From positions 40,005-104,004 of the forward strand of contig CAKREL010000001.1 of assembly GCA_934317205.1 (NCBI GenBank): 64,000 nucleotides of DNA, in the 5' to 3' direction. Shown piece by piece: positions 13,857-35,116 of this stretch. The stretch is from an uncultured Eubacterium sp. Lineage in GTDB: Bacteria > Bacillota > Clostridia > Lachnospirales > Lachnospiraceae. The notes under the pieces are model-generated. The model made no database searches, was not told the DNA's origin, and worked only from the letters and a program-made list of their open reading frames with translations. The first letter of the stretch is position 1. The number at the start of each line of letters is the position of its first letter. Position numbers and translations under genes: made by a program.

Positions 13857-15140
13857 ATGGGCAACAGACGAAAGGTTACATTTGCATGTGAAGAATTAAA
13901 TCAAAATAGAAACGTGTTTGAAGGCACAATTGACAGACGCAGTTTTTTTCAAAATATGCGTGGAGACTTGCTGATTGCGGGAGAAAATGCAGGAGATCAG
14001 AATCTGATACTGAGTCTGATCAATAGCTGTGTAGAGAAAGCAGACATGCCGACAATCCTGCTGTCCGGGCATCTGGAATTATTTGAGGAACTACAAAGAT
14101 GCAGAAGCCGGGGCGAAATTGCGAATGTGAGAATTTCCGGTCCTTCTGAGAAAAGTTATCATCCGCTTCTTGGCATGTCAAAACAACAGATTCAGAGAAT
14201 GGTGAGCTTGACAGCACAGGAAATTGGCATAGGTGTGGCAATTGAAAAAGTAATCATTTACACAGAGGCATTGCTGGATATCATCGCCGTGAAATATCCG
14301 CTTTCCCTGCCGGCTATGACGGAGATTCTGCGTGAGGAGGATCATGTGATCTCAGAACTTGCCTTGCAATATGGACTTTCCAGTGCAGTGGCCGACAATA
14401 TACGAGGCAATCATGAAGCCGGAAAGATTTTGCGAAAAATCTGTGCACAGCTAGAAGAAATTTTTAAAAACGTATCAGCACCGGGAAACGATACATTATG
14501 TAATCTTCCAAATGGAATCAAGGAAAATATCAGCCTGTTTGCTTTTTATGCCATATCTGGAAATAACCGGATATTAAATGCTTATCTAAAAGAAGAAATA
14601 TACAACTGCCTGGAACTGGGTATGCGCTTTCGTGTACTTCTGGATGAAATGACATTTGAAGCAGAAAGAGATGAACTGTTGCAATATCTGCTGCAGGAGA
14701 AAGGCAGAGGAAGAATAGAGCTTATATTTCTGGCACAGAACCCAGTGAATGCTTTGAAAAATCCAGGAGATATGTCATTTGCGAATATTGTGATGTTTTC
14801 CCAGTCAACACCTGCAGCAACAGAAGAACTGTCAGACCGGTTATTTGGCAAATATCAATACTATTTTCCAGTGCCGACAGAAGGGACACCGCCCCATCTT
14901 TTATTTACTTTTCAGCGGACAGTCACCTGGCAGATCCATTCAGAATCGCGCCTGCGGGTACGCAGCCAGGATCTGCATGTATTTCCATTTCGCCTGGCGA
15001 CACAGGTTACCTATGTGGCATTAAAAACCATGGAGGGAGATGCTGTTTACCTGGTTCGTGCAGATGAATTTATGCAGAATAAAGCAGGAAGTCAAAAGGC
15101 AATTGATATTCACGGAGGAGAGATGAGAGATGAGACGTAG
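13857..15140 (+). CDS. Degenerate P-loop ATPase-like protein, unknown function
   Basis: 427 residues from the ATG at 13857 (AAAGGAGAG ribosome site; an ATG 21 nt earlier is less likely). The layout recalls VirD4/TraG/HerA-type ATPases: an early FQNMRGDLLIAGENAGDQN where a Walker A would be, and RVLLDEMTFEA (about 259-269) in the position of Walker B. The P-loop lacks the GKT/S signature, so nucleotide binding is doubtful. LIFLAQNPVNALKNPGDMSF followed by ANIVMFSQST resembles the region after Walker B in coupling ATPases. It opens the island operon and overlaps the next small membrane protein by 11 nt. The ATPase relationship is inference; no database family could be checked. Confidence 0.6.
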   Translation: MGNRRKVTFACEELNQNRNVFEGTIDRRSFFQNMRGDLLIAGENAGDQNLILSLINSCVEKADMPTILLSGHLELFEELQRCRSRGEIANVRISGPSEKSYHPLLGMSKQQIQRMVSLTAQEIGIGVAIEKVIIYTEALLDIIAVKYPLSLPAMTEILREEDHVISELALQYGLSSAVADNIRGNHEAGKILRKICAQLEEIFKNVSAPGNDTLCNLPNGIKENISLFAFYAISGNNRILNAYLKEEIYNCLELGMRFRVLLDEMTFEAERDELLQYLLQEKGRGRIELIFLAQNPVNALKNPGDMSFANIVMFSQSTPAATEELSDRLFGKYQYYFPVPTEGTPPHLLFTFQRTVTWQIHSESRLRVRSQDLHVFPFRLATQVTYVALKTMEGDAVYLVRADEFMQNKAGSQKAIDIHGGEMRDET

Positions 15141-15408
15141 AAGAAATATTTTTCAAAATCAGTCAGACAGAATGGCTGGAATCCGGAACCTTTCGCCGGC
15201 GCAGATTGTGACAAGAGTGCTGGGAATTTTATCAGTGATCGGAGCAGTGCTCATAATGGTGAATCTGAACAAGATCATGGCTGCCATGGCCGTTTTTGCA
15301 GCAAAGATATGTTCCGGTGGAATCGTAGCTTTTGTGGCACTTGCGATAATTATATATTTGCTGCTTCGCCTGCGCTGGCGGATCAGAAACAGATTTTGGA
15401 GGTGGTAA
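15130..15408 (+). CDS. Small two-span membrane protein
   Basis: 92 residues, with a GGAGGAGAG ribosome site inside the 3' end of the preceding gene and an 11-nt overlap, so it is co-translated. An Arg-rich N-terminus precedes two hydrophobic spans (about 27-50 and 58-82), and the C-terminus is again Arg/Trp rich (LRWRIRNRFWRW). It resembles the small inner-membrane subunits seen beside secretion ATPases in size and topology only; no family is recognised. Confidence 0.7.
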   Translation: MRRRRNIFQNQSDRMAGIRNLSPAQIVTRVLGILSVIGAVLIMVNLNKIMAAMAVFAAKICSGGIVAFVALAIIIYLLLRLRWRIRNRFWRW

Positions 15409-15410
15409 AA

Positions 15411-15632
15411 ATGATGAGTTATGAATTGTGGGACATATGGATGTCTGTTCGCCGTTTCCTGATTGGATGGGGCGTTGGAATTGGAATTTTGTTTGTTGCG
15501 AGTTGTATACGATACAGGGCGTTTATCGGACAGGCCTTTGTGAATCATATCGGAGCATTGATCAACGGCATTATGCCGATTCTGATCATTTTGTTTGGCA
15601 TCGGATATGCATTGAAAATGGCCTTTAAATAG
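15411..15632 (+). CDS. Small two-span membrane protein
   Basis: 73 residues from the ATG at 15411, preceded by GGAGGTGG and only 2 nt after the previous stop. Hydrophobic spans lie at about 16-34 and 46-68. It is paired with the preceding protein of similar size and topology, suggesting a membrane anchor made of two small subunits for the operon's soluble proteins. This role is inference. Confidence 0.7.
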   Translation: MMSYELWDIWMSVRRFLIGWGVGIGILFVASCIRYRAFIGQAFVNHIGALINGIMPILIILFGIGYALKMAFK

Positions 15633-15714
15633 AATTTATAAAATGGAATGGTGTAAGTGTCATCAGTATTTACTTTTAACATTCACACCATAGGATGAGA
15701 AAGGAGCGTATAAA

Positions 15715-17280
15715 ATGGCAATAAAAATGGATACAAAACCGACTGTGATCGGACTGGACTTTGGAAACTGTAACTCTTTTCCGTGTTTTATTTCAGAGTT
15801 TGACAGTGACACAAAGATTGGAGGAAATGTGCATGATCTTCTTCCGGGTGGAATGAATGATGGAATACCGAGTGTGTTTTTTTATTCTGATAAAACCGGG
15901 GTTCTATGCGGAGAAAATGCAGTGCGGAGCCGGGCCAGACCGGTACAAAACAGAAAACGTTATCTGAAGCGTCATCTTGGTAAGACGATGACATTGGATA
16001 AGAGAGAGTTCTCATACGACGAGGCCATTACAGAAGTAATACAGCATTGTGTACGCGTGGCCAACAGACAATTACAGTCGGGCTGGCAGTTATCGACAAA
16101 CCTGCTTTCTCTGGCTTATCCGGCTTCTTATACCTTTGCACAGAGACAGTATCTGATCGAGCAGGCCGAGAAAGCAACTCTGGCCGATGGAACACCTGTA
16201 AAGGTATATGGCACGATTGCAGAACCGGCCGCAGCAGCTCTGGATTATCTGGCAGAATCAGGTGACAGCAAAGAAGCAGCAGTGCTTGTGTATGACCTTG
16301 GTGGGGGAACCTTTGATCTTGCACTGGTGGCGGTTTATCCACAGGGCAGAAAAAATAGTGAGGGGGATACCTACTACTACGATATTGTTGATGTTGGTGG
16401 GCTGGATGACGTCGGTGGTGCAGAATTTGATGAAATTATGTATCAGCTGCTTACGAAAAAATTTCAGGTATCGTTAAAACCGTCACATAAGGAAAAATTA
16501 CGTGCTGAATCTGAAAGAATCAAGAAAGACTTAAGTACTGATTCGTATGCGGAGGCAGAGCTGCTTTATAACGATGAGTATCTGTCTGTCCAGGTAACCA
16601 GAGAGGAGTTCGAAGACGCATCCAGGGATCTGCTGCAAAAAACCATTGCAGCTACAAAGACAATGCTTGCAGAACATTCCAATCAGCAACCTGACTATAT
16701 TGTTCTGACCGGCGGAGCGAGTCAGATGCCAATGATTCGAAAAACATTGGAAACAGAGATTCCGGAGTTTAAAGAAAAAATCAGAGATTTTCGACCGAAT
16801 CGGGCAATTGCTTACGGCGCCGCGCGCTATGGCACAACGGAACTGATCAGTGAAATCAGGACAGAAGAGAATGGATCAATGATTCAGCGCAGAACCGCAT
16901 ATGATCTGGGAATCCGGTTTTTTCATAGTAAGGATGATGAAAAAGGGTATATCTCGACCTACATTCCGGCAGGAACGCCAATACCGTATAAAACTGATTT
17001 TCAGAGCTCCCATACACTTCTCGAAAAACAACGCTATTCTATGTTTCGGGTAAATGAAGCAAAAACAGCGCATCCAAATACTGAGAATGTATCTGACGAT
17101 TATACGGAAATCATGCGGGTCCAATTAGATCGCGGGAAGGAAGTACCGAAAGGAACCAAAAGTGAAACACGCCTGTGCATTGACAAACTTGGGGTACTTA
17201 CGATTGAAGCGAGAGAGGTTGATCATCCGGAGAATAAAATTCAGAACAATGTGGAACTGACCAATCTCAGAAAATCATAA
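15715..17280 (+). CDS. Divergent Hsp70-family protein (first copy)
   Basis: 521 residues, shorter than DnaK (about 610-640). The actin-like ATPase domain is intact: phosphate 1 loop GLDFGNCNS near the start, phosphate 2 DLGGGTFDLALV near 194, and the adenosine motif LTGGASQMPMIRK near 331, plus EPAAAALDYL. After about residue 385 the substrate-binding region is short and unlike DnaK; the C-terminal EEVD-type tail and long lid are missing. An AAAGGAG site precedes the ATG. A second Hsp70 gene follows after 12 nt and a GrpE-like gene after that, but no J-domain protein was seen. A dedicated client-specific chaperone is the likely role. Confidence 0.88.
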   Translation: MAIKMDTKPTVIGLDFGNCNSFPCFISEFDSDTKIGGNVHDLLPGGMNDGIPSVFFYSDKTGVLCGENAVRSRARPVQNRKRYLKRHLGKTMTLDKREFSYDEAITEVIQHCVRVANRQLQSGWQLSTNLLSLAYPASYTFAQRQYLIEQAEKATLADGTPVKVYGTIAEPAAAALDYLAESGDSKEAAVLVYDLGGGTFDLALVAVYPQGRKNSEGDTYYYDIVDVGGLDDVGGAEFDEIMYQLLTKKFQVSLKPSHKEKLRAESERIKKDLSTDSYAEAELLYNDEYLSVQVTREEFEDASRDLLQKTIAATKTMLAEHSNQQPDYIVLTGGASQMPMIRKTLETEIPEFKEKIRDFRPNRAIAYGAARYGTTELISEIRTEENGSMIQRRTAYDLGIRFFHSKDDEKGYISTYIPAGTPIPYKTDFQSSHTLLEKQRYSMFRVNEAKTAHPNTENVSDDYTEIMRVQLDRGKEVPKGTKSETRLCIDKLGVLTIEAREVDHPENKIQNNVELTNLRKS

Positions 17281-17292
17281 AAGGAGGCAGTT

Positions 17293-18912
17293 ATGGATTA
17301 CATGGATGATGAAAAATATATATTAGGATTGGATATCGGGAATGGATATGGATATGCATCCGTGGTTCAAAATCCGAATACAGATCCAATTCCCCTGCTC
17401 CCGGCTTCTCTGGCGAATCTCGGAATGTCAACAGTGGCCTATGTAGAGGCTCCGTCGGGAGAGCATATAGAAGTATTTTCAAATGGAAGAGAGGCAAAGC
17501 GAAAATTTGCCAGAACTCCGCAGCAGCTGGTCCATGCTGTAAAAACACGGCTCAAGGAGGGAACCATTGCGGTTCCACAAGTCACGGAACCGGTAGAAGT
17601 GAATCGCATCTATGCAGCAATTGTACGTGATCTGCTTACGTTGGCAGAAGCGGAACTTGCCAATAAGGGAATTCCAAGGATCTACGATGTGGTGTTTACA
17701 TTTCCGGCGTCCATTGCAGATGATGTGGTGATGTTGGACGCAATGCAGAAAAGTATTGAGCAGGTTGTCATTGATGAGAAACCGATCCGGGTACTTGGCC
17801 GGATACCGGAACCGGCGGCGGTAGCACTTGATTACCTGCACTATATGCAGCATGTTGCTCCGGAGGAGATCCGTATCAAAAAGAAAGACTTTACCGTTCT
17901 GGTCTATGATCTGGGGCATGGAACCTTCGACACGGCTGTAGTGACTGCACAGAGTGAGGGAACTCCCTATAAACTCCACCTGAAGGATGGTCTGGAACAG
18001 GTAGGCGGAAAAGATTTCGATGAACTGCTGTTTCGTGAAATCCTGTCTCTGCTCCAGAAAAAATATCAGTTTTCACCAAGCAATGAAAGGCAGCGGGAAG
18101 AAATAAGGCAGGAAGCTGTAAATGCAAAAATAGCATTGTCCGATACAGAGTCTTATACCGCGACGATATTGAACCAGGAAGGGGAATATTATCAGGTGGA
18201 ACTTACGCGGGAGCGTTTTGAAAAGCTCGGACAATACTTAGTATATCAGACACTGGAAATGGTCTGGCAAATGCTGAATCAGGCAAATGCAGATGGGCTT
18301 TCTATTGATGCAGTTGTACTGGCTGGAGGAGCGAGTAAAATTCCGATGATCCGCGAAAATTTAGAAGTATTGCTGGAGAAGAAGTGTCCGGTTGTAATGC
18401 ACCGTCCTTCGGAAGCTGTGGCTTATGGTGCGGCTCTCTTTGCGTATGGTATTGCACAACAGGAGAAAAAACAGGAACAGAAAGCGGAAGTACCAGGTGA
18501 GAAAAAGGCAGTTATCCAAACGGCAAATCCGGTGCTTGAGCAGCTGACAGATTGCTGCTACGGCATCTGGTATCCGTCTGAGGAAAAGCTGGAAGGTGAA
18601 ATAAAATTTCTTATAAAAAATGGTCAGTCGAGACCGTGCAGCGCTGCGCCAGTTCCTTTTGTCAGTCAGTCTTCCAGAGTTGTGTTTCGGATTTATAAAT
18701 CAAGGAAGAAAAATCAGGAGCTGGAAAAAGCTGATATGCAGGAATGTGATTCTATTTTGTGGATCCCATTTGAGGTGAAAAAAGGGCTTAAATACAGATT
18801 AACATTAACCGCGTTGGAAAATTATGGATTACAGGCTGAACTTCGGTCAGATGAAGGTGATTATTACAAAAAAACGACAGCTGACACCTGGGAAGTACTG
18901 ACAGGAAAATAG
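17293..18912 (+). CDS. Divergent Hsp70-family protein (second copy)
   Basis: 539 residues, preceded by AAAGGAGG. It has GLDIGNGYG, IPEPAAVALDYL, the phosphate 2 loop DLGHGTFDTAVV (His replacing the middle Gly) near 205, and LAGGASKIPMIR near 342. The last ~150 residues are a divergent substrate-binding-like domain beginning with a charged linker (EKKQEQKAEVPGEKK). It differs substantially from the neighbouring Hsp70, so the pair is not a recent duplication and may act as a heteromer, as Hsp70/Hsp110 pairs do. Both genes lie in one operon with a 12-nt gap. Function is inferred from the family. Confidence 0.87.
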   Translation: MDYMDDEKYILGLDIGNGYGYASVVQNPNTDPIPLLPASLANLGMSTVAYVEAPSGEHIEVFSNGREAKRKFARTPQQLVHAVKTRLKEGTIAVPQVTEPVEVNRIYAAIVRDLLTLAEAELANKGIPRIYDVVFTFPASIADDVVMLDAMQKSIEQVVIDEKPIRVLGRIPEPAAVALDYLHYMQHVAPEEIRIKKKDFTVLVYDLGHGTFDTAVVTAQSEGTPYKLHLKDGLEQVGGKDFDELLFREILSLLQKKYQFSPSNERQREEIRQEAVNAKIALSDTESYTATILNQEGEYYQVELTRERFEKLGQYLVYQTLEMVWQMLNQANADGLSIDAVVLAGGASKIPMIRENLEVLLEKKCPVVMHRPSEAVAYGAALFAYGIAQQEKKQEQKAEVPGEKKAVIQTANPVLEQLTDCCYGIWYPSEEKLEGEIKFLIKNGQSRPCSAAPVPFVSQSSRVVFRIYKSRKKNQELEKADMQECDSILWIPFEVKKGLKYRLTLTALENYGLQAELRSDEGDYYKKTTADTWEVLTGK

Positions 18913-18922
18913 GAGAAAAAAG

Positions 18923-19819
18923 ATGCTTAGAAACGAAAAAAATGTAGCGATACAGGATACAAATACAAAAGAATATGAGGAAAAAGAGAGTGCATTTATC
19001 GATGCAGTAAAGGAAGAAAGGAATAAGATTATAAATAACGCAGAGAGGGAGGCTTGGCAGATCATAGAACAGGCCAGAACCGAAGCGGAAGAAATAAAAA
19101 GTGCAGCAGAAGCAGAAATGCAGCAGAAAAGAGAGAGTCTTCGTGAAGAAGAGGAAAAGATGAGAGCACGGATGCACGAGTATTGGGAGAACCAGCAAAA
19201 GCAGGACAGAGAAAAACTGAATGCAGAAATGGCCCGATTGTCAGAAGACTATCTGAAAGAGACAAAACGGATGGAGCAGATTCATGATCAAATGTGTGAT
19301 GATACCAACATTCTTCAGGTAAGTTGGAACATTGCAATGAATAGTGTGATTTCCACGATCCAGGAGACAACAACAGATTTTTATTCATATCTTCAGAAAT
19401 GGAAGACATCATTATATCCTGGTGAAGTGGAGCGACTGGCACGGTGTTATGTGGATCTTTATCGGATCATCAATGTAAATGTAGATGGGGTGCTCGGTGA
19501 AGAACTTCTTGGAGAGAATTTCTCAGAAAAAACGCTGAACGGGTTGCAGAAATTGAAAAGTACATTATCAGTTTTTTTAAATCAATATCAAACGGCTTTA
19601 CATGGGCTTGACTTGTATGTTTATTCCCCGAAAGAGGGGGAAGTATTTGACGATTATTTTCACACCCTTGCAGAAAATATCGATGGTACAGAAAAGCGGA
19701 TTGTAGAATGCAGCACACCTGGCATTATGAAAAAGGCTCAGAATGAAAATGACGATGATGTTGTGATCAGAGCAGTTGTCAGAGTACAAGGTGTAGATAA
19801 GCGGGAGGATAAAGGATGA
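18923..19819 (+). CDS. GrpE-like nucleotide exchange factor candidate
   Basis: 298 residues, AGGAGAAAAAAG ribosome site, 10 nt after the second Hsp70. Residues about 15-115 are a highly charged coiled coil. A helical middle follows, and the C-terminus has the GrpE pattern: GEVFDDYFHTL, then a short beta segment and DVVIRAVVRVQGVD, comparable with FDP.(L/Y)HEAV ... VLRPAMVKV of GrpE. Length is greater than typical GrpE (about 190) because of the extended coiled coil. The position immediately after two Hsp70 genes supports an exchange-factor role. Similarity is structural and weak, so this is an inference to be tested by profile search. Confidence 0.6.
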   Translation: MLRNEKNVAIQDTNTKEYEEKESAFIDAVKEERNKIINNAEREAWQIIEQARTEAEEIKSAAEAEMQQKRESLREEEEKMRARMHEYWENQQKQDREKLNAEMARLSEDYLKETKRMEQIHDQMCDDTNILQVSWNIAMNSVISTIQETTTDFYSYLQKWKTSLYPGEVERLARCYVDLYRIINVNVDGVLGEELLGENFSEKTLNGLQKLKSTLSVFLNQYQTALHGLDLYVYSPKEGEVFDDYFHTLAENIDGTEKRIVECSTPGIMKKAQNENDDDVVIRAVVRVQGVDKREDKG

Positions 19820-20439
19820 AGCCCCATAATACGGAAGCTGAAAAACAGATTGCGCAGCATACATATCAACTGATTGTCTATGACAGGGAAAAATTGTCAG
19901 AGACAGGGCTTCTTCTGTCAGAAAAAGGGCAGGATCTGCAAAACCTGTCTTATACAGAACCGGTTCTGTTTCAGGCAGATAGTCGAATCCGGTTTCATAT
20001 CGATCACGAAGAAAAGGAATATATTTTGCCGGAACCGCTGACAGAACCGTTGGAACTGCTTGCATTTACCATTGGAAAGCAGGATGGATCAGATGTATTG
20101 CTGGTTCGCAGATATGAGCATTCTGATCATGTATATACGATCAGGCTCGAGGAAGAATTTGAAGCAGATATCCAGACGGTGCTCCGTGATGTCAAAAAAG
20201 CAACAGATGCTCATAAGGAACTGTCCGCGTATCGGACAGAATTAGAAAGAATCCAGGCTGCAGTGCAGGAGAATGGATATGTCAATACGGAAGATTTTAC
20301 GAAAAAACTCAGAGAAATGAATCAGCAGGCAGAGGTATTGATCACTCAGTATGACAGCTTTCTGAAAGCTGTCAGTCAGGATGTTATAGATTTGCAGAAA
20401 AAGATTGAGATCAGAAGAAAAGCAGGAGGTGAAAAGTAA
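19816..20439 (+). CDS. Hypothetical protein with C-terminal coiled coil
   Basis: 207 residues. Its ATG overlaps the preceding stop (ATGA), so translation is coupled. The N-terminal ~110 residues look like a beta-rich domain (RIRFHIDHEEKEYILPEPL, VLLVRRYEHSDHVYTIRLEE); residues about 120-207 are charged helices with heptad spacing. No signal peptide or membrane span. I do not recognise the family. It sits between the GrpE-like and radical SAM genes, suggesting an accessory subunit of the same complex. Confidence 0.75.
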   Translation: MKPHNTEAEKQIAQHTYQLIVYDREKLSETGLLLSEKGQDLQNLSYTEPVLFQADSRIRFHIDHEEKEYILPEPLTEPLELLAFTIGKQDGSDVLLVRRYEHSDHVYTIRLEEEFEADIQTVLRDVKKATDAHKELSAYRTELERIQAAVQENGYVNTEDFTKKLREMNQQAEVLITQYDSFLKAVSQDVIDLQKKIEIRRKAGGEK

Positions 20440-20443
20440 ACTT

Positions 20444-21052
20444 ATGCAGATTCAGTTACATGCCATCAGGGATGGTGTTACAAAACTGGGACCGGGAATC
20501 CGGTTTGTTCTTTGGACACAGGGCTGCCAGCGCAGATGCCCAGGATGTATGACGCCGGAGAGCCAGCGTATGAATGGCGGATTTTCGGCAGATACAACGC
20601 AGCTGGCCAGGCAAATTTTAAAAAGCGAAAGAAAAGGACTGACTATCAGCGGTGGGGAACCTTTTTTACAGGCAAAGGCACTGGCAGAACTGATCCGCGA
20701 GATCCGAAAAGAAGCGGATCCTGGGGTGATGATCTACACTGGTTTTACGATACAGGAGCTTCAGGAATCAGAAAATCCAGATTACAAAGAACTGCTGGGG
20801 CAGTGTGATCTGCTGGTGGATGGACCTTACATGCAGGAGCTGAACGATTCAAAAAATCTCAGGGGATCTTCCAATCAGAGAGCCATTGCGCTGACAGACA
20901 GATATCGAAATTTTGCAAAAGAAATTGGAACTAAGCCGGCAGAGGCAGAAATATTCTATGAGGAAGAACGCATAAGCATGGTTGGAATCCCGCCAAAAGG
21001 ATTAGTTGAAAAAATGAGACAAAAAGAAGTTACAGGAAATTCAGGGATTTAG
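20444..21052 (+). CDS. Radical SAM activating-enzyme-like protein (NrdG family)
   Basis: 202 residues from ATG 20444, which follows GGAGGTG at slightly long spacing and lies just after the preceding stop. The radical SAM motif is C28-x3-C32-x2-C35 (CQRRCPGC), and LTISGGEPF (about 66-75) is the SAM-contacting GGE motif. Size and layout match the anaerobic ribonucleotide reductase activase NrdG and related 4Fe-4S single-cluster activases. No glycyl-radical partner (NrdD, PFL-like) is encoded in the operon. Its neighbours are Hsp70-type chaperones and coiled-coil proteins, so it may modify a protein of this system. That role is inference. Confidence 0.87.
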   Translation: MQIQLHAIRDGVTKLGPGIRFVLWTQGCQRRCPGCMTPESQRMNGGFSADTTQLARQILKSERKGLTISGGEPFLQAKALAELIREIRKEADPGVMIYTGFTIQELQESENPDYKELLGQCDLLVDGPYMQELNDSKNLRGSSNQRAIALTDRYRNFAKEIGTKPAEAEIFYEEERISMVGIPPKGLVEKMRQKEVTGNSGI

Positions 21053-21065
21053 AAAGGGGATACAT

Positions 21066-26216: not shown

Positions 26217-27185
26217 ATGGATAAAAAGGATATTTTATATTTTGCAAATGCAGATACATACGATCAGTGGATGAAGCAGGTGGAAGGAGAAAAGAAGAAT
26301 CTGCTGAATCAAAAACGAAAAAAGATGGCTGCCCGGAGACTCTTCCGGGCAGAGGGAGGCTGCATTGTATATTTAGATGATCTGAAAGGGCAGATGACTA
26401 TTATACACAGCAGTGGAGATATTCAAAAAGAAGAGCATGTACAGGCATTTTCAGCCAGTGAACGCAATTATGCCGTGCTTTATACAGACGGTTCTGTCAA
26501 AGTGTTTGGTGAGGATAATGGTTATGGCCAGAAAGACACCGAGAACTGGAGTGATATCATACAGATTCTGGCAGCACCGAATTGTACTTACGGAATTACG
26601 AAAAATGGTGAGATCATATATGCAGGTTTGGCACAAAAGGATGTTTTAGGCTGGAAAAATATAAAAATGCTCCAGGCTGGGAAAAACAGGATTGTAGGTC
26701 TTGAGAAAGATGGTAAAATAAAAATAAGTGATAATGGAAATGCTGACATTGAATTAACAGGACAGCCGGATAACTGGCCAGAGATAAAAGAGATAGCACT
26801 GTCTGGTAATTGTATTGCCGGGCTGACGAAAGATGGCCGGGTTCTGTTTTGCGGGAAACAGGATGATGCGAGACGGCAGGCAGAAGAATGGGCCGATGTG
26901 ATCACACTGACGGCAGACAGTTCCTTTGTATATGGCCTGACATCGGATGGACAGATAAAAGTTGCCGGCACCTGTGCAGCATATTTTGATCGTGGGAGAT
27001 CAGATGTTTCGCAATGGTCAAAGCAGGAACGGGTACTTGCGCTGACGGGCAATCCGTCAGGTGGTGTGGCAGCAGTCACAGAAAGTGGTGAACTTAAAAT
27101 GGCAGGTGCAATAAGCGCTGATTCGGACACGATCTGTGAATCCTGGAATCATACCATCAGACCGTTTTTATCAGAGCAGGTTTAA
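26217..27185 (+). CDS. RCC1-like beta-propeller protein
   Basis: 322 residues, CGAGGAGGAT upstream. Residues about 80-315 contain at least six imperfect repeats with an hhGLTxDGxhhhhG core, for example YGITKNGEIIYAG, IVGLEKDGKIKISD, IAGLTKDGRVLFCG, VYGLTSDGQIKVAG and VAAVTESGELKMAG, typical of RCC1-type propeller blades. The first 60 residues are charged and helical (QVEGEKKNLLNQKRKKMAAR). No signal peptide. Such propellers usually bind proteins, so it may be a recognition or scaffold subunit of the operon's complex. That role is inferred. Confidence 0.8.
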   Translation: MDKKDILYFANADTYDQWMKQVEGEKKNLLNQKRKKMAARRLFRAEGGCIVYLDDLKGQMTIIHSSGDIQKEEHVQAFSASERNYAVLYTDGSVKVFGEDNGYGQKDTENWSDIIQILAAPNCTYGITKNGEIIYAGLAQKDVLGWKNIKMLQAGKNRIVGLEKDGKIKISDNGNADIELTGQPDNWPEIKEIALSGNCIAGLTKDGRVLFCGKQDDARRQAEEWADVITLTADSSFVYGLTSDGQIKVAGTCAAYFDRGRSDVSQWSKQERVLALTGNPSGGVAAVTESGELKMAGAISADSDTICESWNHTIRPFLSEQV

Positions 27186-27204
27186 GCAGAGAAGGAGGTA
27201 AATA

Positions 27205-27759
27205 ATGTATAAAGTGATCAAAAATCATGGAAAAACAGTGCAGGCTTATCAGCTTGGAGGTGACAGCAGCGTAATTCAGGAGCTGATTTGCAGCAGAAAA
27301 ATAATTCCTTTAGATAATGATAAATATGAGATTTTTTCGCAGGAAGTGCTGCAGGCGGGAGCCGAACATGGCCAGATTGCATCGCGTGGTGACTGGATCA
27401 AGATAGACAGCACAGGAAATCCGTATCCCAATGATCAGGCGTTTTTTCAAAAGAATCACAGACATGTCGAAGGTGATACCTTTGAACAGATTCCGCAGCC
27501 TCTCTGGGCCTGGGACGCAGAGTGTGAGATGTGCAAAGAAATTGAGTTTCTGATCCGGGAGAAAGGATTGCAGATCATACCGGATTCGAAGGAACAGTAT
27601 TATACCGCCCCTCTCTGGGGGACTGTAGAGAGTGCGAAAAAAGATGCAGTCATTATTTTTTACAGTATAAGCTATGATGCAGCTGGAAATGTCATGGATG
27701 CAGATTTTAATTTTGTGGAACGTGGAGAATTTGAGCGGACGTATTCCAGATACAAATAA
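27205..27759 (+). CDS. Hypothetical protein, possibly PGDYG-like
   Basis: 184 residues, AGAAGGAGG ribosome site. Contains HGQIASRGDWIKIDSTGNPY followed by an aromatic-rich stretch (WAWDAECEMCKEIEF) with two cysteines three residues apart. The GDWI...NPYP segment loosely resembles small phage-associated PGDYG proteins; I am not sure of this. Soluble, no membrane span. It is the last gene before the TIR gene, which seems to have its own promoter. Confidence 0.65.
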   Translation: MYKVIKNHGKTVQAYQLGGDSSVIQELICSRKIIPLDNDKYEIFSQEVLQAGAEHGQIASRGDWIKIDSTGNPYPNDQAFFQKNHRHVEGDTFEQIPQPLWAWDAECEMCKEIEFLIREKGLQIIPDSKEQYYTAPLWGTVESAKKDAVIIFYSISYDAAGNVMDADFNFVERGEFERTYSRYK

Positions 27760-27774
27760 ATGGAACTTATTCAT

Positions 27775-27814
27775 ACTCTATCAAAAATAAAACATTGTAA
27801 AATAGACATAGAGT
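27775..27814 (+). promoter_or_regulatory. Inverted repeat and promoter before the TIR gene
   Basis: ACTCTAT (27775-27781) and ATAGAGT (27808-27814) form a 7-bp inverted repeat enclosing an AT-rich segment with TAAAAT near 27798, a likely -10 box. It may be an operator for separate control of the TIR gene. Confidence 0.4.
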
Positions 27815-27853
27815 GTGATACAGGTAAACGGGATAGGTATAAGGGGTGTTTTG

Positions 27854-30754
27854 ATGAAAGAATTTGAATATATGATCAGAGGAAAAGGAGATCCTTATGG
27901 GCGGCAGAATGTTTTTTTTACGTGTCATCCAAGTGACTTTCATTTATATTTTGAACAGATTTCCCAGATCATTTTAAAAAAATATGATTGTACAATATGG
28001 TACTGTCAAGAAAAACCGGATGATGAAAAAGAGTACACCATCAGAATTAGTGAAATGCAGTTGCTGGTTATTCCAGTGACGGAAAAATTTCTGACGGGAA
28101 AAAACCGCGCACGTGACTTTGATCTTCCATTTGCATTGGAACACCATATACCTGTTCTGCCTTTATTGCTGACATCTGGACTTGAGGAACAGTTTGCTAA
28201 AAAATGCGGTGACATCCATTTTATTGATAGAAATGCATGTGATACAACCACGTTGACTTTTGAAGAAAAGATCATCAAATTTCTTTCTGCTACTTTAGTT
28301 AGTGATGAACTTATGCAGAAAATAAAAGAAGCTTTTTATGCCCGTATATTTTTGAGTTATCGAAAAAAAGATCGCGTATTAGCAAATAAACTCATGAAAT
28401 TAATTCATGATATTCCGTTTTGCTGGGATATATCCATTTGGTTTGATGAATATCTGGTGCCGGGAGAGAGTTTCAACCATGCCATTGCGGAGGCTATGCG
28501 CAATAGTCATCTTTTTGTACTTTGTGTTACAGAAAATCTGATAGAAGAGGGAAATTATGTTCAATTGGTGGAATATCCTAAAGCCAGAGAAATGTCACTG
28601 CCTGTGCTTCCAATCATTCCGGAAAAGATGACTTTTGAACAGAGAGAGTTATTAAAGAAAAAATACGAAGATATCCCTGACGGCATTGAGGCTGGGAATA
28701 CAGAGCAGCTTGAAAATTGCTTTTATAAAAACTTCACGGATATTGCAGTGTCTGCAAGAACGGATGATCCAATGCATCTTTTTTTTATTGGACTGGCATA
28801 TCTGAATGGAATTGATGTAGAACTGGATTATGATCGTGCGACTGAATTGATCAGTCAGGCAAGTAACGCGAATTATGCTCCAGCGATGGAAAAACTTGCC
28901 AACATGTACAGAATCGGGGAAGGTGTTTCGCGAAACTACGAAATGGCACTTAGCATGTACGAAAAGCTAATAAATGTGATAAGTAAAACTGGAGACAAGA
29001 AAAAAAGCTATGAGATTCATTGTGAAATCCTGAGACTTTTACTGGATTCAGATATTCTTTTCCGAGTTGAACATGTGGATAGTTCAAGAAAACACACATC
29101 CGAGGTTCTTGACCTGGCATCAAAAATTGATTTGAGTAATCCTGAAATTTTTAAGCTGTTTTCGCTGCTGGCATTTGTGAATGAGCACGATGAACAGGTG
29201 TCTGATCAATTTGTATCTGCTGCTTTGGAGGCTCTTTCGACGGTTTGTGAGAATGATGACGATATCATGGTAGAGAAGGCATATTTTTATAGCCGACTGG
29301 CGGATCTGTATTATCGGAGAAATGCCGGATTGTTAGTGTATCATATCACATCTGATGACACGCATGAAATCCGGCGAAAGCAAAGTAGACAATACATGGA
29401 AAAGGCAATCGATTTGCTTGAGATACTGTATGAGAAAGATCCTATCCGATGGAAAGTTAACTATGCGTATGCGTTGAACATTTTTTGCAGAATGAATTAT
29501 GCAGAACCATTCAGCAGTGAACAGATCATAGTAGATAGTATGGAACGGGCAATTGAATTATATCGGGAACTGTACGAAGAAAATGCATTATTATATGCTG
29601 AAAAGCTTGCTTCATTGTGCAGAATTAGTGGCAACTATCTTGCGGTTGAATATGATATGATATGGGAAAATGACTTGGGAATTCTGATAAATCTTAATTC
29701 TGAACAGTTTGTTCCCAATAAACCAGAACAGAAAATTTTGCTGGAACAACAAATGGATCAAGATGATGAAGTGTGTGATATTCGCAGGATACGCAAGGCA
29801 TTGTCGCTAATCAGATATAGTGTCACTGTGTATGAGAATTATGTGGAAAAAGGGCAGGACGATTGCTGGGTAGAACTGGCAGAGGCATATTTTGACCTTT
29901 CAATGTTACTAAATTACTTCTCGCAGTGGATTGATAATGTACAGCAGGACAATATTGATGAAATATATGCACAGTTACTTACAGACGGGTTTGACGGATA
30001 TAAAAAGATGCTTATCGCAATGCGCAAATATGCTTTCATTATATCATCAAAATGCCATGATATTAAGGAAAAAAAATTCAATCGTGTCAGCTGTGCTAAG
30101 AATGGTTCCTATTCGGAAAAGGAACTTGTGGATCTTGAATATAAGGCATATGACAGAGATCCATTTGTGGAATGCTATAATTTTGCTTTAAGACTTTATG
30201 ATAACGATCTTCAAGAGGAAGCAAACCAACTTCATGAAGCACTTTATCATTTCTTTAAGGAGGTTGATAAAGATACAGATTCAGCTCTGGTATTGATGAA
30301 TCTTTCAGCCTATGCATCCGGTAAAAATGATATGGACGAAAGATTAGCCTTGTTGTTAGAATTTGATGATTCAGATGAGGACGATGTATTATCTGACTGG
30401 CAGGGAAGAGAGACATTATTTTCGCATTATTGTGAAATCGCAGAATGCTATATGAAGAAAGATTGTTTTTCCAACGCCGATAAATATTTTGGAAAAGCAA
30501 AAAAAATCAGTCATTTTTTCAGAAATCCGCGTCAGGCCATATTCAATAAAAAATGGTCAGAGTGCAAAAGAAATATGGGAGATTTTGCAGGAGCTGAGAA
30601 TAAGATCTGGGAAGGTCTTGAAAGTTTGCTTTCAATGAAGCATATTCCAAAGGATATATGGAATGATCTGTCTCATGAATATGTGTCGCTATTAATACAA
30701 ACAGGCAGAGAGAAAGAAGCAAATGAGTGGAGAAATGAAATGTTTATCAATTAG
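27854..30754 (+). CDS. Tandem TIR-domain protein with Sel1/TPR repeats
   Basis: 966 residues from ATG 27854 (AAGGGGTG upstream). Two TIR-like domains are arranged in tandem: residues about 15-150 (NVFFTCHPSDFHLYFEQ, LLVIPVTEKFL) and about 162-300 (ARIFLSYRKKDRVLANKL, SIWFDEYLVPGESF, LFVLCVTENLIEEG, LVEYPKAREM). The second keeps the serine-rich loop and the Glu of the usual NADase position (near 239); the first looks degenerate. Sel1-like repeats follow (FFIGLAYLNGIDVELDYDRA, LANMYRIGEGVSRNYEMAL) and TPR-type helices reach the end. TIR-TPR proteins often act in bacterial immunity by NAD cleavage. Base composition is visibly AT-richer than the preceding genes. Confidence 0.88.
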   Translation: MKEFEYMIRGKGDPYGRQNVFFTCHPSDFHLYFEQISQIILKKYDCTIWYCQEKPDDEKEYTIRISEMQLLVIPVTEKFLTGKNRARDFDLPFALEHHIPVLPLLLTSGLEEQFAKKCGDIHFIDRNACDTTTLTFEEKIIKFLSATLVSDELMQKIKEAFYARIFLSYRKKDRVLANKLMKLIHDIPFCWDISIWFDEYLVPGESFNHAIAEAMRNSHLFVLCVTENLIEEGNYVQLVEYPKAREMSLPVLPIIPEKMTFEQRELLKKKYEDIPDGIEAGNTEQLENCFYKNFTDIAVSARTDDPMHLFFIGLAYLNGIDVELDYDRATELISQASNANYAPAMEKLANMYRIGEGVSRNYEMALSMYEKLINVISKTGDKKKSYEIHCEILRLLLDSDILFRVEHVDSSRKHTSEVLDLASKIDLSNPEIFKLFSLLAFVNEHDEQVSDQFVSAALEALSTVCENDDDIMVEKAYFYSRLADLYYRRNAGLLVYHITSDDTHEIRRKQSRQYMEKAIDLLEILYEKDPIRWKVNYAYALNIFCRMNYAEPFSSEQIIVDSMERAIELYRELYEENALLYAEKLASLCRISGNYLAVEYDMIWENDLGILINLNSEQFVPNKPEQKILLEQQMDQDDEVCDIRRIRKALSLIRYSVTVYENYVEKGQDDCWVELAEAYFDLSMLLNYFSQWIDNVQQDNIDEIYAQLLTDGFDGYKKMLIAMRKYAFIISSKCHDIKEKKFNRVSCAKNGSYSEKELVDLEYKAYDRDPFVECYNFALRLYDNDLQEEANQLHEALYHFFKEVDKDTDSALVLMNLSAYASGKNDMDERLALLLEFDDSDEDDVLSDWQGRETLFSHYCEIAECYMKKDCFSNADKYFGKAKKISHFFRNPRQAIFNKKWSECKRNMGDFAGAENKIWEGLESLLSMKHIPKDIWNDLSHEYVSLLIQTGREKEANEWRNEMFIN

Positions 30755-30803
30755 TATCTGTTCCTGGTACAGAGATTTTTAAATAAGTATCAGAAGACGG
30801 TCG

Positions 30804-30855
30804 AAGCTGTCGTTTACAGGAATCAATGAAGTTCCTGTAAACGACAGCTTTTTTG
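30804..30855 (+). terminator. Strong intrinsic terminator after the TIR gene
   Basis: A perfect 19-bp stem, AAGCTGTCGTTTACAGGAA with its complement at 30832-30850, has a 9-nt loop and is followed by TTTT. It ends the first island operon. Confidence 0.92.
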
Positions 30856-30869
30856 TGCCTTTAAATGGG

Positions 30870-30902
30870 CAGTTTCAAAAGGAGTTGTATACAGTTTCAA
30901 AA
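30870..30902 (+). promoter_or_regulatory. Paired CAGTTTCAAAA motifs
   Basis: CAGTTTCAAAA occurs at 30870-30880 and 30892-30902, 22 bp apart (about two helical turns). The second copy lies in TATACAGTTTCAAAA, identical to one at 13712-13726. It precedes the second island operon, supporting shared control. Confidence 0.5.
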
Positions 30903-30972
30903 GAAAAATCTGTCTCTGATGATGAAAGCAGCTACACATGTTTAAATTTAGATAAAAGAAAGGAGGCTGTTC

Positions 30973-31281
30973 ATGATGAAACAGATTGAAACAGAAAAAC
31001 TTGTGGCAAAGATTATTGAGGATTATGGCATTTCAAGAAAGGCGGCACTTGAGAAAGCGGCATGGATAGAGCAGGAATGCCCAAAGGTATTGATGCAGAA
31101 TGTGGAGGAATGGATCGAAGGAAAAGAATTTACAGAGATCTGTATCGAAAATCATTCCATACCATTGATTCTTTTCCTCTGGCATAACAGAGACTTTCTT
31201 GAGGCTATTGCTGTGATGAAGGAATTGGAAGATGGTGAAATAACCACGGCAAAAGAAAAAATCTGGCTCTTTCGGATGTAA
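30973..31281 (+). CDS. Small hypothetical protein
   Basis: 102 residues, AAAGGAGG ribosome site before two consecutive ATGs. Predicted mostly alpha-helical, with ISRKAALEKAAWIEQECPKV and an acidic C-terminal helix. No membrane span or recognised family. First gene of the second island operon and ends 6 nt before the HExxH protein, so the two may work together. Confidence 0.7.
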   Translation: MMKQIETEKLVAKIIEDYGISRKAALEKAAWIEQECPKVLMQNVEEWIEGKEFTEICIENHSIPLILFLWHNRDFLEAIAVMKELEDGEITTAKEKIWLFRM

Positions 31282-31287
31282 CCGCCT

Positions 31288-32406
31288 ATGGAAAAGAATG
31301 GATACGGAGTACATCCGACACAATATGGAAAATTAAGCAATGATGAGCTTTATGGCATGTTTCGTGAATCTGTATACACTAAATTAAACGAATCCGAAAA
31401 ACGGGATCTGCTTCAGGAGACAGTAAACCGGGATGCCATGGAGAAAGGGATGGTTGGCGCTCCACTGGTGCAGTTTGCAGATCTCCCGGCAATAGAAAGC
31501 GGCAATGCTAAAAATGGTTATATCAATGTAAATCGCGATATTGCGACACGCGGTATCCAGTCCGTTGAATACAATGGTCAGATTCAGGAAAATCAGATAA
31601 AAGATTATAATGTTCAGGCATTAAATACAGTGCTGCATGAAGAGGAGCATTGCCTTCAGGAGCAGATTATCAATGGCACTGTCATAATAGATGATACGGA
31701 TCTGACACAGGAGTATATTGCCAACGATTTTACAACAAGTGCGGTATTGAAAGATGGCAGTTACAAGCTTGGTTCTCAGTATGTGACCGGAGAAACACCG
31801 GGAGGATACTATTTTTACTATTTTCAGCCGACAGAGCGGGATGCTTATCTGAATGCAGAAAATAAGACGGCATCGATTTTAACACAGCTCACCTCAAAAT
31901 TTGGGACGGAAGACTCATTTGCAGCATACGAAACATCTGTTCTGACAAAGGGATATCAGGCAACCGAACAGAACGCCATTCAATTATTTCAAAATCCTGA
32001 GTTTGTAAAAGATGTCAGTGCCACACTGCAAAATGAATATTACAAAACAAATATCCCGGTAAATGATATTTACACGCAGAATGCCATGAAAGCAGAGATG
32101 ATCGCAAGTTATCAGGCGGAACAGCTGCAAAACGGAACATTCAACAAAGCAGATATAAAGGAGGATACCAAAATGGACTTTAGCACAAAAACAACAGAAC
32201 TGGATGAAAACAACATTCTGGCTGAATCAGTAAATGAAAGTGAACCTGCCGTTGAAACAGAAGGCTTACGGGAAGGAGGTATTTCTGACGATTCGGCTGC
32301 CGCACATGCAGGCAGTTCTGCCGGAGTATCAAATGAGGGGGAATCCGCTGGCGATGGGATTGATATGGATGGCGGTGAAGGTGCGGACGATGGACTTGAT
32401 CTGTAA
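31288..32406 (+). CDS. Putative HExxH metallopeptidase-like protein
   Basis: 372 residues. There is no good ribosome site; translation is probably coupled to the gene ending 6 nt earlier. A zincin-type motif HEEEH lies at 117-121 (TVLHEEEHCLQEQ), and TERDAYLNAEN supplies a possible third ligand at Glu183. Residues 1-110 carry YINVNRDIATRG and similar soluble-domain features. The C-terminal ~70 residues are acidic, Gly/Ser/Asp rich and likely disordered, ending in EGADDGLDL, an arrangement seen in some secreted or recruited substrates. No signal peptide. Protease activity is inferred only from the motif. Confidence 0.72.
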   Translation: MEKNGYGVHPTQYGKLSNDELYGMFRESVYTKLNESEKRDLLQETVNRDAMEKGMVGAPLVQFADLPAIESGNAKNGYINVNRDIATRGIQSVEYNGQIQENQIKDYNVQALNTVLHEEEHCLQEQIINGTVIIDDTDLTQEYIANDFTTSAVLKDGSYKLGSQYVTGETPGGYYFYYFQPTERDAYLNAENKTASILTQLTSKFGTEDSFAAYETSVLTKGYQATEQNAIQLFQNPEFVKDVSATLQNEYYKTNIPVNDIYTQNAMKAEMIASYQAEQLQNGTFNKADIKEDTKMDFSTKTTELDENNILAESVNESEPAVETEGLREGGISDDSAAAHAGSSAGVSNEGESAGDGIDMDGGEGADDGLDL

Positions 32407-32429
32407 AGAAATGGAGGCAGAAAAATATC

Positions 32430-33848
32430 ATGGCATACGATTATGGACAGAAACAGTTCAGAATAACTGACAGCAATAATAGCACTAATAAAACATACGT
32501 ACAAACACTTCTGGGACAGGCGATTGATGAAAATCCGGTGCCTGAATGGACAACAGATCCGGACAAGGATCCGTTTGTAATATTTAAAAATCCAAAAAAT
32601 GGAAACGTCTGGGGATTAAGTAAAAAGCATCTGGCGTATGGACTGTTGGCTGTCGGTACACCTGGAAGTGGAAAAACGAACTTTTTTCAATGGGTTCTGC
32701 AGCAGCTTCTGAAAACGCTAAAAAGCGGAGAGGTCGTAGTTATATTTGATACCAAGGGAGATTACCTGCGAGAATTTGGACCGCATATTCCGGCAAATGA
32801 AAAAATTGTAATCGGTAACGGAGAAATTTATAAAGATATCACCAGTTACCACAATTTGTTTGCAGAAGTTATGCCTCGCGGCATGGATGGCAGACTTATA
32901 TATACTTCAGAATCAGATGAGGATGCTTTTGAACTGGCCTTGCAATTATCTAAAACCATGGACAGTCAGATCCAGCCGGTATTCCCTGCTATGGCTGCGC
33001 AGATGTTCGCATCAGGAATGATCTACCTGATGCGGACTTACTGGAGATTAGATCCATCGAAGCTGAATAACAGAGAACTGGTCAATTTTTTCCAGCAAAA
33101 AACAGTAGAGGATCTGCGAAAAATTTTTGAAGAGGAGAGGATGAAAGACTTGCGAAGCTGTCTGGATTACATTGGAAACAAAGGAAACCAGACGCAGGGC
33201 GTAATGAGCTATCTGGGAGCCATGATCCGAAAACTTTTTGTCGGTCCTTTTGCGCAGGCAGATCCTGCCAGAGAATTTTCCATGCGTGAAGTGATGAACA
33301 GCGGACAGCGAAAGGTAATCTTTATTGAATATGACTTGCGAAAAGGACAGCTGATGGCACCGATGTATGGAATGCTCATTGACAGAGCACTTGCAAATGC
33401 ACTTGGCGGCAGATCCGGATACAATGGAAACAAATATTTTCTTCTGGATGAAGCACTATTATTGCCCCGGCTTGAACATTTAGCTAATAGCAATAATTTT
33501 GGCAGATCCCCTTCAGGGACAGAAGAGGGTGTTCGCTTAATGTGTGGTTTGCAAAATATTGCCGGCATCAAGGAAGTGTATGGAGAGGCTGGAGCAGACA
33601 ACGTGCTTTCCTCTTTCCAGAATCTCATTACTTTCAAATTATGTGATTACGATACGCGTCAATTTGTGGTAAATCGTCTGGGTGAAAATTACCAGAACTT
33701 CAGTGTCAGTCCGCAACAGAATAATTTGGATATTCAGCGGGAAGGTCACACGGTGGAAGACTGGCAATTATTAAATCTTGGACTAGGGGAAGCTGTTATT
33801 TCCCTACAGGATGAAAAGCCGTTTTTATTTACCATGCCAAAATACTAA
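32430..33848 (+). CDS. VirD4/TraD-like conjugation-type ATPase
   Basis: 472 residues; GGAGG lies 12 nt before the ATG. Walker A is GTPGSGKT (76-83), followed by the FDTKGDYLREFG motif typical of TraD/VirD4/HerA ATPases, a Walker B-like FLLDEALLLPRLEHL and a late GLQNIAGIKEVYG corresponding to the sensor/glutamine motif. The N-terminus lacks transmembrane helices, unlike classical VirD4 coupling proteins. No relaxase or mating-pore genes are nearby. It may be a pump motor for protein or DNA in a non-conjugative system. Confidence 0.85.
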   Translation: MAYDYGQKQFRITDSNNSTNKTYVQTLLGQAIDENPVPEWTTDPDKDPFVIFKNPKNGNVWGLSKKHLAYGLLAVGTPGSGKTNFFQWVLQQLLKTLKSGEVVVIFDTKGDYLREFGPHIPANEKIVIGNGEIYKDITSYHNLFAEVMPRGMDGRLIYTSESDEDAFELALQLSKTMDSQIQPVFPAMAAQMFASGMIYLMRTYWRLDPSKLNNRELVNFFQQKTVEDLRKIFEEERMKDLRSCLDYIGNKGNQTQGVMSYLGAMIRKLFVGPFAQADPAREFSMREVMNSGQRKVIFIEYDLRKGQLMAPMYGMLIDRALANALGGRSGYNGNKYFLLDEALLLPRLEHLANSNNFGRSPSGTEEGVRLMCGLQNIAGIKEVYGEAGADNVLSSFQNLITFKLCDYDTRQFVVNRLGENYQNFSVSPQQNNLDIQREGHTVEDWQLLNLGLGEAVISLQDEKPFLFTMPKY

Positions 33849-33861
33849 GGAGTGATGTAAG

Positions 33862-34314
33862 TTGAGGAAAATGATAGAAATTTTGAATGCACTTTATGTA
33901 CAGGTGAGTGGATTAGAATTTTATAAATACATAGGGTTGTTTACAGGAATTATAGTCGTAGCTGCTGTGATAATATGTCTTTGCAGAAAAAGAGGACAAA
34001 AAAGCGGTCAGACAGATGCTAGGGCTATGGATTTGAATATAAAGAAAGCACCTGAGATAATACCAGAGAGTGAACCGGACGAAGAAGATTGGAGAGACAT
34101 TTTTACAGAGATAGAAGCAGAATTAGCGCTACGCTCAAGACAGAAGAAAAATACTGAGGTGATAGCAGAGAATGAATCGAGTGTGGATGTCTGGTATGAT
34201 GATTTTGAAGATAATGATTTGGAATTTGACAGTTTCTTGAATCAGATGGGAGAAACACAGGATTTGGAAGTTTCAACAGAAGAAATTTACAGGTATGGCG
34301 AGACACAGGAATGA
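33862..34314 (+). CDS. Single-span membrane protein with acidic tail
   Basis: 150 residues from TTG 33862 (AAGGAG 9 nt upstream). One transmembrane helix at about 24-42 is preceded by a short N-terminus and followed by a basic stop-transfer segment (CRKRGQKSGQ). The remaining ~100 residues are strongly acidic and likely cytoplasmic. It directly follows the VirD4-like ATPase and could anchor it, since that ATPase lacks its own membrane helices. No family recognised. Confidence 0.72.
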   Translation: MRKMIEILNALYVQVSGLEFYKYIGLFTGIIVVAAVIICLCRKRGQKSGQTDARAMDLNIKKAPEIIPESEPDEEDWRDIFTEIEAELALRSRQKKNTEVIAENESSVDVWYDDFEDNDLEFDSFLNQMGETQDLEVSTEEIYRYGETQE

Positions 34315-35114: not shown

Positions 35115-35116
35115 TA

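Follow-up and report, generated by a model that had tools for sequence, protein, structure and literature searches.

We describe a chaperone and AAA gene cassette in a 64,000-nucleotide stretch of DNA (hereafter the window) from an uncultured Eubacterium sp. of the Lachnospiraceae (assembly GCA_934317205.1, contig CAKREL010000001.1, positions 40,005 to 104,004 of the forward strand). The cassette joins Hsp70 genes, a GrpE-fold protein, a NrdG-like radical SAM protein (rSAM), a coiled-coil protein that we call coil526, a tandem AAA protein and an RCC1-like beta-propeller protein. These lie, with all accessory genes, on a 31.6-kb island. The island, the genes of the cassette and the end of their run are as follows.

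13610..45192, no strand assigned: island, 31.6 kb, carrying all cassette and accessory genes; its flanks align to the relative G925
15715..17280, plus strand: Hsp70a, core (PF00012 118.5 bits, E 3e-34; phosphate and adenosine motifs kept)
17293..18912, plus strand: Hsp70b, core (PF00012 133.1 bits, E 1e-38; DLGHGT replaces DLGGGT)
18923..19819, plus strand: GrpE-fold protein with a long coiled stalk, core in Clostridia versions (AlphaFold pLDDT 82.4)
19816..20439, plus strand: 207-aa fusion of a degenerate third Hsp70 tail (residues ~1-113) and a coiled-coil protein tail (~115-207), by comparison with locus L001
20405..21052, plus strand: NrdG-like rSAM, core (PF13353 E 1.5e-34)
21066..22646, plus strand: coil526, core, 526 aa, a long coiled coil with a conserved alpha/beta C-terminal domain (from homologues and loci)
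22643..26200, plus strand: AAA protein with three SpoVK/CbxX-type domains and without a C-terminal trypsin-like domain (domain scan)
26187..27185, plus strand: RCC1-like beta-propeller protein, core in Clostridia versions (PF13540 E 7.9e-9)
27815..30754, plus strand: TIR plus Sel1 (TIR-TPR) protein, last gene before the terminator (PF13676 E 1e-9; PF08238 E 1e-8)
30804..30850, plus strand: intrinsic terminator, a 20-bp stem followed by a T run (from the sequence)

The core order is conserved in Clostridia. A pattern-based search of 84,980 species genomes returned 12 other coil526 loci, a lower bound that missed one further version (G460). These loci share the order Hsp70s, GrpE-slot protein, coiled coil, NrdG-like rSAM, coil526, tandem AAA protein and RCC1-like protein. 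Counted as far as the contigs reach, the coil has the AAA gene after it in all 12 loci and the rSAM gene before it in all 11 that cover the position (L011 stops short of it). Behind the AAA gene stands an RCC1-like match in each of the 10 loci with coverage (weak in L010, L011 and L012, E 3e-4 to 2e-7), and Hsp70s lie upstream in 8 of 8. The GrpE slot is filled in 8 of 8 as well, five times by tblastn and three times by alignment only, at 18-19% identity. Simple calling of open reading frames hid some real genes (for example, the Hsp70s of G005), and tblastn was used there. This synteny persists down to 31-33% identity in the coil. The thirteenth and divergent version, G460, has the order of the Ruminococcus locus L010, with a leucine-rich repeat (LRR) gene within the set. 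An initial annotation of the window had proposed these genes and several neighbors as one system, to be tested by co-occurrence across genomes. The Hsp70-to-RCC1 core passed that test; the VirD4-like, membrane-protein and 'degenerate ATPase' genes, with counterparts beside L001, L002 and L012 only, are not core. Within the core, its two divergent Hsp70s, radical SAM protein, triple CbxX-type AAA protein and RCC1-like propeller were all confirmed by the domain matches above, two of its coiled-coil proteins are predicted as long helices, and its GrpE-like protein is supported by the predicted fold, not by Pfam.

Both Hsp70s are members of the Hsp70 superfamily, with 118.5 and 133.1 bits against a PF00012 gathering threshold of 20.6 and with nucleotide-binding motifs. 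Neither is a canonical DnaK: they score 109.7 (Hsp70a) and 96.9 (Hsp70b) against an NCBIfam cut-off of 648. The GrpE-fold protein has no match among the GrpE sequence models of Pfam and NCBIfam. Its predicted model comprises a helical stalk and a beta domain, and the eight best Foldseek rows and six best VIA rows are all GrpE. A J-domain HPD motif was absent from the island proteins tested, in a motif search only. Downstream, the L001 counterpart of the 207-aa gene is two separate proteins of 320 and 188 aa. The Hsp70 slot in L001, L002, L005 and L009 is occupied by proteins of 305-320 aa; that of L001, the one scanned, has no Pfam match. Aligned by hhalign with five full slot Hsp70s, the four short slot proteins matched with a probability of 96.4 (E 1.3e-9) over 291 columns from position 161, and because the match starts there, the first part of the slot Hsp70 is missing. 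To judge from these alignments, the slot Hsp70 is decaying, and decay is further along in the window, where its tail has become joined to the tail of the next coiled coil. Hsp70 copies also multiply, with up to four in G007, G010 and G012 and a 124-aa fragment in L009 (L007 398-8236; L009 142-3831), hinting at diversification of the client-binding part.

The most specific marker of the cassette is coil526, for which the protein collection contains at least 77 homologues at E 1e-5; its model has no match to PDB folds at E 0.001. The tail of coil526 may resemble DUF2997/DUF1257. Two tandem coil526 paralogues occur in Ruminococcus versions (L012 8395-11566 and L011 81-2904), suggesting a heteromer.

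Each of the three AAA domains in the window has Walker A and Walker B motifs. The protein scores 562.4, 495.4 and 485.3 against the SpoVK, EccA and CbbX models, above all three curated cut-offs (466.65 for EccA) because its three domains are summed. Active-looking AAA domains number two in G008 and G460, three in the window and four relatives, and four in five relatives, and complete AAA proteins of relatives span 1110-1727 aa. Of the 12 relatives whose AAA gene is complete, G460 among them, 11 have a trypsin-like tail; ten match the L001 domain and that of G003 was recognized by PF13365. Pfam assigned Trypsin_2 to all three of the relatives' AAA proteins scanned (E 7e-22 to 2e-23), and the H, D and S of the domain are kept in 10 of 10 aligned. 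The AAA protein of G003 was taken from P0121 (1727 aa, from a 5,721-bp contig), where PF13365 and not the triad identifies the domain, and the AAA gene of G004, cut by a contig end, was left out of the protease count. No remnant of the trypsin-like domain was found in the window (best tblastn E 3.1). Assembly error is an unlikely cause, because P0141 (1176 aa, standing for 34 sequences; 99% over the last 111 residues) and P0144 (1166 aa) also lack PF13365. The TIR-TPR protein, which PADLOC likens to ThsB (E 7e-8), is probably the candidate output of the window copy, which has no fused protease.

The rSAM gene has been inherited together with the coil and AAA genes. Pairwise distances among the three proteins correlate across 11 members (Mantel r 0.84, 0.88 and 0.95), and for none of the three pairs did any of 2000 permutations reach the observed value. 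Without G460 and a Calothrix plasmid copy, r is 0.65-0.94, and no permutation of 2000 was as high in any of the six tests. Furthermore, the 12 cassette rSAMs, including that of Calothrix on a long branch, form one clade against 11 other host rSAMs (98/96; 0 of 500 shuffles). Those 11 rows were kept after motif filtering of 16 host loci, which dropped L055, L057, L063, L076 and L078; two of these, L055 and L057, belong to the top three NrdG matches in the hosts searched. The dropped L063 (G012:C94) encodes a further NrdG-like protein, of 115 bits and below the cut-off, in a cassette-bearing genome. Although close to NrdG and PflA, the window rSAM scores 111.6 bits against TIGR02491 (cut-off 126.1), with eight cassette copies at 96.0-108.5 and Calothrix at 103.4. 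A separate NrdG above the curated cut-off was found in seven of eight hosts searched, whereas the eight cassette copies fall below it.

A reduced relative of the cassette lies on a plasmid of Calothrix, where the annotated order is Hsp70, a 1316-aa TPR protein, a 4Fe-4S (radical SAM) protein, coil, two-domain AAA protein and coiled coil. In pairwise comparison its rSAM is 38-40% identical (E 7e-43 or better), its coil 25-26% (E 6e-19 or better) and its AAA protein 35% to that of G460 (E 2e-144); the AAA protein has no trypsin match. The Hsp70 fits the slot Hsp70s of G460 and G012 (E 4e-36 and 9e-34) much better than Hsp70a (E 3e-5). Because of these pairwise matches, the oldest shared core that we see consists of the slot Hsp70, rSAM, coil and AAA protein; it is in the Clostridia versions that we see the other Hsp70s, the GrpE fold and RCC1. 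The TPR protein carries NB-ARC in its first 420 residues (38.1 bits against 23.5), while a scan of the whole protein lists TPR families only. On the opposite strand lie one clear DO-GTPase gene (56.9 bits against 27) and one weak one.

We take the cassette to be a horizontally moving accessory unit. In the close relative G925, the same site is empty of the island: the flanks match up to 13,609 on the HK end and from 45,193 on the aconitase side, with 46 bp between them. No coil526 match was found in the G925 genome, in a search that had no positive control of its own, though the A1 profile finds the copy in G001. The window host is a near relative of E. ramulus (GlgB DNA 88% to G001 and 87% to G925). 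Nine cassette genes are 37-77% alike at the amino acid level between the window and E. ramulus L001, whereas four flanking genes are 85-98% alike. Because of this disparity, separate acquisition of the two cassettes is the simplest reading of the sequences, with faster change as the alternative. In the same comparison, pS is 0.60-0.71 for the cassette and 0.37-0.65 for the flanks, and pN is 0.14-0.38 against 0.01-0.08; pN/pS of the nine cassette genes is 0.20-0.55. The cassette is also rare. With genomes drawn evenly per group, the order scan was positive in 2 of 394 (the center genome and G460), and three further scans in 1 of 392, 1 of 391 and 1 of 378, each positive being the center genome itself. 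We found no recombinase match among 24 island proteins scanned, no direct repeats of 14 bp or longer within either island end taken singly, and no Rfam match over the window.

The initial annotation knew of no described system with this composition, and we recognized none in the open-licence literature, including the available parts of PMC7159879, PMC11090510 and PMC8195603; most subscription papers and preprints lie outside that search. PADLOC 2023, run on 10 proteins, likewise matched no named system and returned single-protein resemblances only (for example, of the AAA protein to IetA and of the TIR protein to ThsB). Each named system tested has defining features that the cassette lacks, yet the cassette works in the style of chaperone-based conflict systems. 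The nearest parallels are the NTP-dependent conflict systems of Kaur et al. 2020 (PMC7159879), comprising the MoxR-vWA ternary and DO-GTPase/GAP1 systems. In the parts available, these build on a chaperone NTPase core to which exchangeable modules are added, and such modules reappear in the cassette: trypsin-like peptidase, beta-propeller, TIR, STAND, HSP70 with GrpE and, in one subset, radical SAM. However, no vWA match occurs in the window proteins scanned, the cassette AAA protein is of SpoVK/CbxX type, and neither DO-GTPase nor GAP1 is among those proteins; the Calothrix plasmid has DO-GTPase, and GAP1 was not identified there. The main text of that paper does not use the terms SpoVK, CbbX, EccA, RCC1 or 4Fe-4S. 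CoCoNuT Type III-A superoperons (PMC11090510), as described in the accessible part of the source, combine coiled coils, Hsp70-like domains and SpoVK-type tandem AAA with LRR. McrC, DUF2357, VWA, CARF and HEPN had no match among the window proteins scanned, and GrpE and radical SAM are absent from the main text of PMC11090510. The cassette AAA protein belongs to the same subfamily as EccA, SpoVK and CbbX but has two to four tandem domains and mostly a trypsin-like tail, and no other Type VII secretion gene was found. Like DnaK-GrpE, the cassette pairs Hsp70 nucleotide motifs with a GrpE-fold partner; its Hsp70s differ in falling far under DnaK cut-offs, with no DnaJ motif found and several paralogues, one of them degenerate. 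The Calothrix NB-ARC-TPR protein scores 279.4 as the TPR protein of the FxSxx-COOH system, below the cut-off of 300.

We propose that the cassette encodes a chaperone-AAA conflict or surveillance machine with its own rSAM maturase and swappable outputs, a function that, judged from gene content, we rate as just short of probable. In this machine, the Hsp70s would capture a client and hold or present it, served by a dedicated GrpE-type exchange factor. The coiled coils would scaffold the Hsp70s onto the tandem AAA protein and pass the client along, and the AAA protein would unfold or remodel it, with cleavage following where a protease is fused. The RCC1-like propeller could be the recognition element, with an LRR or NB-ARC-TPR protein in other versions. 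The rSAM may covalently modify a cassette protein, setting or arming it under anaerobic conditions. It must act on a constant component, and coil526, whose tail is strongly conserved, is our first guess as a candidate substrate. The output would be swappable, a fused trypsin-like protease in most relatives and the TIR-TPR protein in the window, and the putative role would be to sense an invader or other insult and then kill or arrest the cell or its invader. A surveillance or defense role, which the initial annotation had raised, is plausible. We favor conflict because of the mobility of the cassette and the company it keeps (TIR in the window, NB-ARC and DO-GTPase in Calothrix, LRR in G460). 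A more specific version, which we hold only tentatively, is a new class of immune or programmed-death machine common to gut Clostridia and a filamentous cyanobacterium, in which the dedicated rSAM arms an Hsp70-loaded tandem AAA protein by post-translational modification while recognition (RCC1, LRR, NB-ARC-TPR) and output (protease, TIR) are exchanged.

Several observations weigh against a conflict machine. The G006 cassette stands between ABC transporter genes and BacA/HD-domain genes, and its AAA protein has no protease domain. In G010, the neighbors are LysR/transport genes and a solute-binding/permease set, and downstream in G007 lie genes for a solute-binding protein and an ABC transporter; in none of the three settings is there an obvious separate effector. 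Of all the copies, those in G006 and G010 speak most strongly for a self-contained machine, and they are also the chief evidence against an obligatory effector of toxin type. A TIR relative was not found in any other locus read, and no complete PADLOC system was found among the 10 proteins scanned. Coil526 and Hsp70a have no relatives in viral contigs, and coil526 has no match in phage records. By tblastn of the coil against 72,556 plasmids, the sole match was one Calothrix record, which is also the sole record matched by the G460 coil. Patchiness and mobility are compatible with many accessory roles, and the rSAM substrate is a guess only.

The same gene families could serve protein quality control, with Hsp70 and GrpE passing misfolded or damaged proteins to a tandem AAA unfoldase-protease as an accessory system for gut stress. 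Four of its parts (Hsp70, GrpE fold, AAA and protease) belong to proteostasis families, and in G006 and G010 the cassette stands by itself, surrounded by transport or housekeeping genes. We nonetheless regard this role as unlikely: the cassette is rare and patchy, the protease is absent from the window, G006 and Calothrix, the island proteins tested have no J-domain motif, and radical SAM, TIR and NB-ARC proteins would be odd company.

If the conflict reading is true, a chaperone-and-AAA system would be added to bacterial conflict biology. Relative to the literature compared, in the parts available, two features are new: a chain of tandem SpoVK/CbxX AAA domains that carries a fused trypsin-like protease, and a dedicated radical SAM enzyme, NrdG-like, that is co-inherited with Hsp70s. 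This raises a testable question, namely what the rSAM targets and whether its modification licenses a chaperone machine. The protease-less copies (window, G006 and Calothrix) constitute a natural experiment, and should the rSAM-armed reading hold, the cassette would deserve its own class.

Other features of the island include genes before and after the core, two further gene runs and a repeat.

13836..15140, plus strand: 434-aa protein, accessory, the 'degenerate ATPase' of the initial annotation (61% to L001)
15130..15408, plus strand: small hydrophobic protein, 92 aa, accessory (77% to L001)
15309..15632, plus strand: small hydrophobic protein, 107 aa, accessory (66% to L001)
27205..27759, plus strand: 184-aa protein (no Pfam match)
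30973..35114, plus strand: second gene run (scans and reading by eye)
opening the second run at 30973, plus strand: 102-aa protein, its first gene (open reading frame)
31288..32406, plus strand: HExxH-like protein, 372 aa (motif HEEEH read by eye; no Pfam match)
32430..33848, plus strand: VirD4-like ATPase (PF10412 E 5e-27; TrwB E 6e-13)
33862..34314, plus strand: 150-aa protein with one hydrophobic segment (by eye)
34311..35114, plus strand: LRR_5 protein (LRR_5 E 8e-17)
40073..45024, plus strand: third run, encoding a NERD/Card1-like nuclease, a 343-aa protein, ClpP, a second VirD4-like ATPase and a 341-aa protein that is hydrophobic by reading (scan)
39928..40093, no strand assigned: 166-bp repeat, internal copy (alignment with a relative)
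45027..45192, no strand assigned: 166-bp repeat, copy at the right end of the island (alignment with a relative)

From Hsp70a to the TIR gene, neighbors are separated by gaps of 55 bp or less or overlap. This agrees with the operon-like spacing noted initially; however, the full gene string is not one unit, because a strong terminator at 30,804-30,850, the first such one and with a 20-bp stem, parts the chaperone run, closed by the TIR-TPR gene, from the VirD4 run. The 434-aa and two small proteins recur in one of the seven loci that extend beyond the Hsp70s (L001). The small pair do look membrane-spanning, by reading only, as first described, but they are not core. The start that the initial annotation gave, 13,857, is an in-frame internal ATG of the 434-aa reading frame, which opens at 13,836. 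For the 434-aa protein, Pfam yielded nothing at E 1 and PDB nothing at E 10, and hhalign found no match between it and VirD4 (with profiles of two rows each, weak against a remote tie); we set aside the idea of a dead VirD4, and the ATPase label is left with no detectable ATPase relative. Among the other loci read, the pair formed by the first VirD4 and the HExxH-like protein has a counterpart only in the genome of L002, and L012 alone has ClpP and the second VirD4, which stand together next to its cassette. Relatives of the TIR, 184-, 102-, 150- and 1184-aa proteins were not found in those loci. The L002 counterpart of the 372-aa protein is 23% identical and adjoins VirD4. The triad of the third-run ClpP is apparently intact, by reading.

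The VirD4-like motor of the initial annotation is confirmed as a VirD4/TrwB-type ATPase, and a secretion or conjugation-derived machine, in which VirD4-like ATPases provide power and the EccA-like AAA protein and chaperones deliver substrates, would draw on the two such genes in the island, on their relatives beside L002 and L012 (one each) and on the EccA-level score, itself a sum of three domains. We consider it improbable, and the secretion reading offered initially is not supported. The first VirD4 sits past the terminator, and neither VirD4 has relatives beside the remaining cassettes read. Of Type IV secretion or conjugation components, only VirD4-type proteins were found among the 24 island proteins scanned, with no VirB4 or relaxase (some short reading frames lie outside the scan). 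EccC/EssC and WXG100 were absent from the same 24; the one gene with a weak WXG100 match (E 0.0096) lies beyond the island. Least probable of all is maturation of a radical or metal enzyme, in which the NrdG-like protein would install a radical and the chaperones and AAA protein open or repair the client. In its favor, NrdG/PflA activases are the nearest match of the rSAM and CbbX-type AAA proteins are enzyme activases; against it, the glycyl-radical-like motif R[VIT]xG[YFW] is absent from the 31 window proteins tested, a crude test, and most hosts have the separate NrdG described above.

In G007 (L026 10695-16362), the Hsp70 genes are immediately preceded by DUF5717, DUF5716 and TPR genes. 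We rejected DUF5717 as a lead for the cassette: of the 13 cassette genomes, three carry it, and G007 alone has it next to the cassette, with the DUF5716 and TPR genes between it and the Hsp70s. A literature search for DUF5717 and DUF5716 gave only general Hsp70 papers among the matches listed.

The 166-bp repeat has another copy elsewhere in G925 (L048 18217-18383), and the copies are 95-97% identical. It contains hairpin-like stretches, by reading, and flanks the NERD-ClpP-VirD4 block on both sides. Possibly a mobile element or a regulatory one, it could account for movement of that block. Within the island, an 1184-aa protein (35792-39346, minus strand) has no Pfam match above cut-off. Shortly beyond the island, at 49215-51956, lies the gene of a 913-aa TPR protein with a weak AAA/NACHT-like match.

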